From positions 1 through 23,211 of the IMG/VR virus record IMGVR_UViG_3300021963_000677: a stretch of DNA of 23,211 nt. One strand, written 5' to 3'. Each line of letters begins with the position of its first letter. Within the stretch, counting starts at the first letter, position 1. This document shows positions 12,098 to 19,673 of the stretch, piece by piece. Position numbers and translations under genes: made by a program. The notes beneath the pieces were generated by a model. The model did not search any database. It was not told the DNA's origin and saw only the letters and a list, made by a program, of their open reading frames with translations. This DNA comes from a virus.

Positions 12098-12565
12098 TCA
12101 TTGCTCTTGATTACGTCCAGCAAAGGCTTTTAATTCATCCGCCAACAAAGCAATCACTCTACCGTCCATTCGCCTTGTCTTCATCAAGCGTTGAAGAACA
12201 ATCAAGCTCTCATCACTTAATCCAGTATCTTTTTTAATTGATTTTGTGTCAAATGGCAAGAAATCTTCTGGCTTAATTTTTGACTTACGTCCCGCCATCA
12301 TTCCTGACACCATTGTGCCAAGCTTGGCAATGGCAATGCTGTTGACATTGTATTTGGCTATGTCATGCTTGTCCAAATATTTCAACGCACGCTTCACGTC
12401 TTCAATGGGTTGCAAACCAAATTGATCTGCATTCCATCGTGGATCATGAAGGTCTGACGATGAAAGACGAAAATAAATTTCGTTCCAATTTGTCAGATTT
12501 TTTAATTGTTTCCTGGCAAGACTTTCTTGCCGTTCTGCTATTGAGGAGAATTCCTCTTCGTTGCT
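12098..12565 (-). CDS. Tail assembly chaperone, -1 frameshift extension (gpT-like)
   Basis: This frame is open from the slippery A7 at 12565 to a TGA at 12098 and adds 155 residues to the upstream chaperone after a -1 shift, for a fusion of about 325 residues. Its own only likely start would be TTG at 12415, which lacks a clear ribosome site and would discard the first 50 codons that read as ordinary protein (NWNEIYFRLSSSDLHDPRW). The C-terminal part (KDTGLSDESLIVLQRLMKTR, then MDGRVIALLADELKAF) is helical. Small helical proteins overlapped and extended by frameshift directly before the tape measure are the lambda gpG/gpGT arrangement, needed for tape measure folding and tail assembly. The frame and the signal are seen; the function is inferred from position. 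Confidence 0.78.
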   Translation of the reverse strand, partial: SNEEEFSSIAERQESLARKQLKNLTNWNEIYFRLSSSDLHDPRWNADQFGLQPIEDVKRALKYLDKHDIAKYNVNSIAIAKLGTMVSGMMAGRKSKIKPEDFLPFDTKSIKKDTGLSDESLIVLQRLMKTRRMDGRVIALLADELKAFAGRNQEQ

Positions 12566-13074
12566 TTTTTTGCAGTGGCGGCCTCCTGCACTTCTGCATT
12601 TTGCTCAGCAGTAATAAATTCAACTACTTTGGCAATGTATTTACGTGGCAGGGCCTTGGTATCGTCCAGTTCCCAATCAATGAGATCTTGCCAATTACCG
12701 TCAACCATACCCTGTCCGCGAGAACGAATGAAAGCAGTGACCATGCGGGCGTTGGTGCTTTCAACAGACGATCCGCTGGTAATCATGCTCAGCGTTTCTT
12801 CCGTATAGTCCGCAAGCAGTTCAGCCTCAGTAATAGAGCCACCGCCGCCCTGCAGAAGACCAAAAGCCTCGTCAAGACCAATGCCCTTGGCTGATGCAAT
12901 ACGCTTTGCCAACTGCACGGCACGAATGGTGGATTGACTTTGCAGCTTGCTAATCTCCTCTTGTTCAATTGCTTCAGCGACCAACCAGCCGCCATACTTC
13001 TTTAAACGCAAGTCCGGCAACAGTTCAAAATAATCTTCAGCCTTGGTTTGAACTAGGAAGCTGTATTTGCTCAT
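12538..13074 (-). CDS. Tail assembly chaperone, unshifted product (gpG-like)
   Basis: A 178-residue protein beginning MSKYSFLVQTKAEDYFELLP. The open frame reaches back to a TTG at 13080, but the ATG at 13074 is the better start. The gene overlaps the end of the upstream gene by 38 nt, so coupled translation is likely. The body is mostly helical (AEAIEQEEISKLQSQSTIRA; DGNWQDLIDWELDDTKALP) and the end is a low-complexity tail, ATAKKATKRNSPQ, which is where the frameshift happens. It sits two genes after the tail completion proteins and just before the tape measure, the usual place of the gpG chaperone. No family is recognised from sequence alone. Confidence 0.75.
   Translation of the reverse strand: MSKYSFLVQTKAEDYFELLPDLRLKKYGGWLVAEAIEQEEISKLQSQSTIRAVQLAKRIASAKGIGLDEAFGLLQGGGGSITEAELLADYTEETLSMITSGSSVESTNARMVTAFIRSRGQGMVDGNWQDLIDWELDDTKALPRKYIAKVVEFITAEQNAEVQEAATAKKATKRNSPQ
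12543..12587 (-). promoter_or_regulatory. Programmed -1 frameshift signal in the chaperone gene
   Basis: Read 5' to 3' on the minus strand there is a perfect Shine-Dalgarno-like AGGAGG (12587-12582), then 10 nt, then seven A (12571-12565) read in frame as GCA AAA AAA GCA, then 8 nt, then a stem GAGGA/TCCTC with loop ATTC (12556-12543). This is the same three-part layout as the known E. coli dnaX signal (internal Shine-Dalgarno, A-rich heptamer, downstream stem-loop). A -1 shift leads into the frame that stays open to 12098. Confidence 0.82.
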
Positions 13075-13300
13075 GGTCAAGAATGTTAAGCAATGCGTTG
13101 AAAACTTTCACCCTTTCATTGGAAGAGCGAAATTCTTTAGGAATTTCAACCAGCATTGAATGATTTTCGTTCAAAAGTCTAACAGTCTCTTCGCGGCAAG
13201 AAATAAGACATAAAATGCCAGCCTCTAACGCTGAGCCTTCTATCGTGTTGTTAATCGCATGAATCGTTTTGTCTTCGCTCCATAAATAATCAATTTTCAT
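13037..13300 (-). CDS. Small protein of unknown function in the tail completion cluster
   Basis: An 87-residue protein starting MKIDYLWSEDKTIHAINNTI and rich in charged residues and Leu/Ile, with two likely helices (about 18-40 and 60-80). It shares an ATGA junction with the upstream gene (13297-13300) and overlaps the downstream chaperone start by 38 nt, so it is plainly coded within the operon. No family is recognised. Its place between the gp10-like neck protein and the tail chaperone suggests a tail assembly accessory. Confidence 0.6.
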   Translation of the reverse strand: MKIDYLWSEDKTIHAINNTIEGSALEAGILCLISCREETVRLLNENHSMLVEIPKEFRSSNERVKVFNALLNILDHEQIQLPSSNQG

Positions 13301-19299: not shown

Positions 19300-19649
19300 T
19301 GGTCTTTTTGACGACTTTCTACCATCTTAATGATGCGATTTGCCCACGCCCTGCCGGCATCGCCTCCCCATAACAGCCAAGCAATATAACCGGCGTCGCC
19401 TTCCCCTCCGCTTTTGTTCTTTTCATGGCGAGAAAAGAATGCAGCCATACGTTTAATTGTGGCGAAGCTTACGGCCCCGCCACCAGCTAAATCACTAGCA
19501 CGAGCCACGCCGCTGCCAATGCCCTGCTTGCCCGCCTCTTGCGTAGTTAGCCCGCCTTTGCCATACTTCTTGCGAAGCTCCAGACCACGACGGGCTGCGC
19601 TTCTAACACCAGCAGGAGGGGAGAAGCTTTCTGCGTCACCCCTCAGCGC
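19296..19649 (-). CDS. Recurrent phage domain reached by -1 frameshift
   Basis: From the slippery site this frame gives 117 residues before a stop at 19296: SFSPPAGVRSAARRGLELRK, YGKGGLTTQEAGKQGIGSGV, then ARASDLAGGGAVSFATIKRM and AWLLWGGDAGRAWANRI. The pattern 'FsPP.GVR.aARRGLe.R..Yg.GG ... vaRA..L..G..vs..TIkRM..FF.RHe..K ... aWlLWGGdaGr.WA' is one I recognise as a widespread small module of phage genomes, often near head genes. The only ATG, at 19508, would remove the first third of the conserved module, and no usable ATG, GTG or TTG precedes it, so the frame is most simply reached by a -1 shift from the upstream gene. Function unknown. Confidence 0.72.
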   Translation of the reverse strand, partial: ALRGDAESFSPPAGVRSAARRGLELRKKYGKGGLTTQEAGKQGIGSGVARASDLAGGGAVSFATIKRMAAFFSRHEKNKSGGEGDAGYIAWLLWGGDAGRAWANRIIKMVESRQKDQ

Positions 19650-19673
19650 TTTTTTCCGCAGGAGGCATCCTCC
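19616..19673 (-). promoter_or_regulatory. Candidate programmed -1 frameshift signal (A AAA AAG)
   Basis: On the minus strand the heptamer A AAA AAG (19655-19649) is in the correct phase (GGA AAA AAG CGC). It is preceded 13 nt upstream by GGAGG (19673-19669) and followed after 4 nt by GAGGGG (19644-19639), which pairs perfectly with CCCCTC (19621-19616) across a 17 nt loop. The zero frame stops 4 nt later, at 19643-19645, and the -1 frame is open to 19296. A AAA AAG is the most shift-prone heptamer known in E. coli. Confidence 0.68.

Follow-up and report, generated by a model that had tools for sequence, protein, structure and literature searches.

A putative programmed -1 frameshift cassette joining a DUF6496 protein to a portal- and prohead-protease-associated module in S-CBS4-like cyanophages

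How is a conserved coding frame translated if it opens inside the end of another gene and has no evident start codon of its own? The question is raised by a minus-strand locus in a viral DNA stretch of 23,211 nucleotides (IMG/VR record IMGVR_UViG_3300021963_000677, positions 1 to 23,211), the whole of which is called the window below. An 88-residue open reading frame of this locus belongs to the Pfam family DUF6496 (PF20106; E 1.4e-9, 38.6 bits with a curated cut-off of 24) and its 3' end reads TGC GGA AAA AAG CGC TGA, which places the heptamer A AAA AAG in the phase X XXY YYZ required for simultaneous -1 slippage. An earlier note, made from the window's sequence, had proposed that a DUF6496-like gene ends just past this heptamer and that a -1 shift there would join it to a conserved module in a fusion of 204 residues. 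Both points were borne out by the Pfam match and by translation of the shifted frame, which is open as far as 19296. The second part of the fusion is a member of phrog_2859, a family of unknown function (E 3e-17; 66/66 aligned members match), and no Pfam family matched it. The positions of the features are collected in Table 1.

Table 1. Positions of the cassette features and of the likely tail-assembly chaperone pair in the window.
Feature	Position	Strand	Remarks
DUF6496 gene (0 frame)	19909-19643	minus	88 aa; basic N-terminal domain, Glu-rich tail, C-terminus SCGKKR-stop
GGAGG, Shine-Dalgarno-like	19673-19669	minus	13 nt 5' of heptamer; 7 nt 5' of in-frame CTG
Putative slippery heptamer A AAA AAG	19655-19649	minus	in phase; TGA of the 0 frame 3 nt on
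-1 frame, module ALRGDAESFSPPAGVRSAARRGLE... to stop (phrog_2859 type)	19649-19296	minus	C-terminal part of predicted 204-aa fusion
0-frame stop TGA	19643-19645	minus	within 5' edge of stem region
5' stem arm GAGGGG-T-GA	19644-19636	minus	mismatch at 19638 in window clade
3' stem arm TC-T-CCCCTC	19624-19616	minus	pairs with 5' arm
Likely tail-assembly chaperone pair	13080-12538 and 12415-12098	minus	in-phase A AAA AAA at 12571-12565, close to the 3' end of the first ORF

Relatives were collected by tblastn against annotated phages, where Synechococcus phage S-CBS4 matched at 78% identity, followed by about 87 records of greater distance, and by four IMG/VR scans. The scans turned up several hundred relatives, and the best 80 of each were retrieved. 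After removal of duplicates the comparison set consisted of 135 distinct sequences (IMG/VR relatives and S-CBS4). A single distant relative was found in the GTDB genomes. We refer to this large group of aquatic viruses as S-CBS4-like cyanophages, a label that rests on the nearest isolate and not on an identified host of the window phage. In S-CBS4 (HQ698895.1, 13166-13525; L082/L324) annotation treats the two parts as distinct hypothetical genes, gp018 and gp019, and the latter is called from an internal GTG (VRSAARRGLE...), with the conserved GDAEGFAPPAS cut off. Under a frameshift reading gp018 and gp019 should be one CDS.

As a bare 7-mer the heptamer is unremarkable. AAAAAAG occurs 8 times in the window with 11 expected, and its frequency was dropped as evidence; among the window's called genes the only in-phase copy is the one in the DUF6496 gene, 6 nt from the gene end. 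Its significance lies in its conservation, since an in-phase X XXA AAG occurred exactly 15 nt 5' of the conserved (R)GD codons in 120 of the 135 distinct sequences. Three interchangeable forms were seen, A AAA AAG in 95 sequences, G GGA AAG in 18 and C CCA AAG in 7, all of which have been named as highly shift-prone in E. coli (Atkins et al., PMC5009743). The site was kept beyond coding constraint. The A-site codon was AAG in 120/120 (56% of Lys codons upstream in the same ORFs), and the P-site codon was AAA in 95/95 (44% of upstream Lys), GGA in 18/18 (about 18% of upstream Gly) or CCA in 7/7 (about 19% of upstream Pro). The 0-frame residues at the heptamer varied accordingly (KK, GK, PK) and the base before the first codon always matched. 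In trees calculated from the module minus the stem region (about 315 nt) the G type required 13 changes, at least 10 of them forced by well-supported branches; such counts of independent switches are approximate because of the short alignment and possible recombination. A 0-frame stop followed at the first or second codon past the heptamer in 116 of 119 relatives, and the two coding frames overlap at the site.

Conservation of the heptamer and of both frames, which the earlier note had put forward as a check, was accordingly found in more than 100 distinct relatives. Loss of the heptamer with both frames retained, named there as contrary evidence, was absent from the main set, the exceptions being L114 and L137, which have one-base deletions beside the heptamer, and L273, in which C CCA AAG is displaced 3 nt upstream and the usual stem is absent. 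A missing or extra A in the run, also named there, can be ruled out because G GGA AAG or C CCA AAG replaces the A run in many lineages. Two further variants were observed. In L048/L203 the 0-frame stop is lost, which extends the unshifted product by 13 codons, with heptamer, stem and -1 frame all retained. L249 (about 1562-2498) carries some 90 extra residues between the DUF6496 domain and C CCA AAG as well as an additional Cys-rich N-terminal part, and retains the cassette.

A potential RNA stem follows the site. The perfect 6-bp stem described in the earlier note (GAGGGG/CCCCTC, 19644-19639 with 19621-19616, beginning 4 nt past the heptamer) is indeed there, and the 36-nt stretch containing it has a predicted folding energy of -15.7 kcal/mol (z -2.6). 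For comparison among relatives 110 distinct sequences were aligned without gaps over the region. RNAalifold, supplied with no structure, returned a 7-bp stem at a suitable spacing, starting 6 nt past the heptamer. In a 9-bp version named by hand 93.1% of cells pair, compared to 58-72% when the partner is slid, and the covariation score was 0.168 against 0.090 +/- 0.006 in shuffles, a value reached by 0 of 500. Alignment columns 27/43 are occupied by AU 45, CG 45, UG 9, GU 2 and GC 1. This pairing is no coding necessity since the bases involved are the third of a Gly codon and the first of a Ser/Ala codon. A phylogeny-controlled test of these columns gave 9 independent pairs, of which 7.2 changed the same way and 0 the opposite way (median p about 0.016), and none of the control position pairs listed reached significance. 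In the window and its nearest relatives the covarying pair is mismatched (U.U or C.U), so that the stem consists there of 6 bp, a mismatch and 2 bp. A pseudoknot between loop and 3' flank (GCAG/CTGC) appeared possible by eye in the window; it was not kept in other sequences, again as read by eye, and was discarded.

A search for homologs with both parts in one frame, suggested in the earlier note, was successful. Twelve relatives lack the heptamer, and in all 12 DUF6496 and the module are encoded in one open frame from one ATG. On the tree this fused state required 5 changes, at least 2 of them forced. Such natural one-frame fusions demonstrate that the joined protein is a functional arrangement. 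Less secure than claimed is the fixed ratio of short protein to fusion proposed in the earlier note, and the fused-gene lineages seem to have no short product. They also show that some lineages can dispense with the short DUF6496 form, provided that it is not made in another way. The stem has decayed in the in-frame fusions, with several pairs broken, and for one of these fusions folding was no better than for shuffles. The Arg codon at the stem base is AGG/CGG in 120/120 frameshift types as compared to 4/13 in-frame fusions. Codon choice for Arg-Gly and Ser/Ala-Pro could explain part of the stem conservation, but the in-frame fusions argue against this. Separately, in L075/L194 the frames are joined via an A7 run beside a stop-like TAG of the other frame; the A7 run may have arisen by a recent insertion or reflect faulty assembly.

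The most serious competing explanation, because of a CTG 7 nt past GGAGG in the window, is that the module is a separate gene whose translation begins at a non-AUG codon, for instance the CTG at 19661-19659, perhaps coupled to termination of DUF6496. GGAGG-N7-CTG indeed opens the module frame ahead of the heptamer, and many close relatives have CTG or TTG at the corresponding position. The absence of a start codon for the first third of the second frame, as the earlier note had it, holds for ATG, GTG and TTG, none of which occurs in the window between the last stop and the FSPP motif, though two CTG codons do. Among the 119 relatives the independent, well-placed start that the earlier note had named as contrary evidence did not appear: ATG is absent from all 119, 80 have no ATG, GTG or TTG, and 26 have none of ATG, GTG, TTG and CTG. 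Furthermore, the second frame is closed at or just 5' of the heptamer in 29 of the 119. A CTG start after GGAGG was rejected for the family on the latter two counts. A separate start would also leave unexplained why a slippery X XXA AAG is kept while its first three bases change, and why one-frame fusions exist, and we consider it very improbable. The GGAGG, which had been proposed as a stimulator of the shift, is present in the window at the distance claimed, but it is not conserved; an SD-like 5-mer occurs 10-20 nt 5' of the heptamer in 43 of 118 relatives, and a conserved upstream SD element was dropped.

A second alternative is transcriptional slippage on the A run, giving mixed mRNAs in both frames. 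A6 runs are mildly slippery and L075 has A7 in frame. However, the long A run is missing from at least 25 distinct relatives, which have GGGAAAG or CCCAAAG instead, the covarying RNA stem is maintained, and a fixed phase of the heptamer would be needless. We consider this explanation even less probable than a separate start. Least probable of all is a sequencing error or the decay of a once-fused gene into two fragments. Homopolymer runs are error prone and L137, L114 and L075 differ by one base, but the two-frame layout recurs in over 100 distinct contigs drawn from many metagenomes, as well as in the genome of the isolate S-CBS4, and purifying selection acts on the module (third codon positions account for 68% of differences). 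The comparative data already contradict this last explanation.

We conclude that the locus is very probably a programmed -1 ribosomal frameshift cassette joining DUF6496 to the module, with a probability of about 0.93. The conclusion is drawn from features of the sequences: the site, its phase and conservation, the interchange of heptamers, stem covariation, the in-frame fusions and the lack of a usable start. Ribosomes would translate the DUF6496 gene up to A AAA AAG, where Lys-tRNAs would occupy the P and A sites. With the hairpin 3' of the site positioned at the mRNA entrance, some of the ribosomes would slip back one base and read on in the module frame, yielding a DUF6496-module fusion; the others would meet the stop one codon further on, ending translation with the short DUF6496 protein. 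We infer that this slippage takes place in vivo and that both products are used.

The surroundings of the cassette and the distant relatives of the module give indications of a role. On one side the cassette is flanked by glycosyltransferase-like genes and on the other by a gene cluster encoding DUF2213, a cement protein and the major capsid protein. An AlphaFold2 model of the module is a compact helical domain with a pLDDT of 91.8. A fold comparison with the PDB gave nothing significant (best E 2.1), and a profile search of PDB sequences was negative as well; because a significant fold match is lacking, no biochemical function can be derived from the structure. Structure-based matches among viral predictions included annotated prohead proteases, XkdF and portals. 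In distant relatives the module is fused in frame to an XkdF protease (L083), to DUF2213 (L277), to portal and Mu F (L292, L303) and to a lambda-type portal (L316), and in these it has the appearance of a mobile head-assembly module to which no Pfam family corresponds. The distant fusions to prohead proteases and portals make a head-assembly role likely. We therefore lean towards a role in prohead assembly in which frameshifting sets how many DUF6496 subunits carry the module. For this widespread cyanophage lineage as a whole, a plausible and somewhat favored picture is that a second -1 frameshift adds the portal- and prohead-protease-associated module to some of the DUF6496 protein and so sets the ratio of two head-assembly factors, the site being kept through heptamer swaps and lost on in-frame fusion.

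The site lies outside the tail chaperone, as had been claimed, with the cassette upstream of the DUF2213 and major capsid genes and the chaperone pair located separately at 12098-13080. The -1 frame of the latter is open all the way to 12098, and since this likely chaperone pair also has an in-phase site, the window contains two candidate -1 frameshifts. No description of frameshifting in the DUF6496-module pair was found in the open-licence literature searched, in agreement with the earlier note, and there was no mention of DUF6496 in that literature; by title and abstract, nothing in it was on the topic of cyanophage frameshifting. The mechanism itself is known and the gene pair appears to be new. 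To our knowledge, only a small number of conserved frameshift genes outside mobile elements are well documented, and almost all of those in tailed phages are tail chaperones or capsid/tail-shaft extensions. With the cassette, a gene pair that has hundreds of relatives joins this list, a pair which annotation divides between two 'hypothetical proteins'. The cassette also draws attention to an uncharacterised module with a probable part in head assembly. The natural variation in heptamer and stem, with the in-frame fusions as natural controls, offers material for work on -1 frameshifting in cyanobacterial hosts.

Among known systems, the lambda G/GT chaperone resembles the cassette in that its heptamer lies towards the 3' end of the first ORF and a -1 shift leads into an overlapping frame, yielding a short protein and a fusion. 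The lambda heptamer is G GGA AAG, one of the variants seen among the cassette relatives. The cassette differs in that it lies in the head region, not directly upstream of a tape measure gene, and encodes proteins unrelated to the tail chaperone. The dnaX gene of E. coli has A AAA AAG followed at short distance by a 3' hairpin (PMC3711429), both of which the cassette shares. However, the dnaX shift leads to a shorter product whereas that of the cassette would lead to a longer one, and dnaX has an upstream SD-like stimulator whereas the SD of the cassette is not conserved. Capsid-extension frameshifts are described for phages T3/T7, Lactobacillus phage A2 and Listeria A118 (PMC5009743). As proposed for the cassette, these equip some copies of a structural-region protein with an extra C-terminal domain, but the 0-frame protein of the cassette is an 88-aa DUF6496 protein instead of the major capsid protein, and its added domain is predicted to be helical whereas those of the capsid type are Ig-like.
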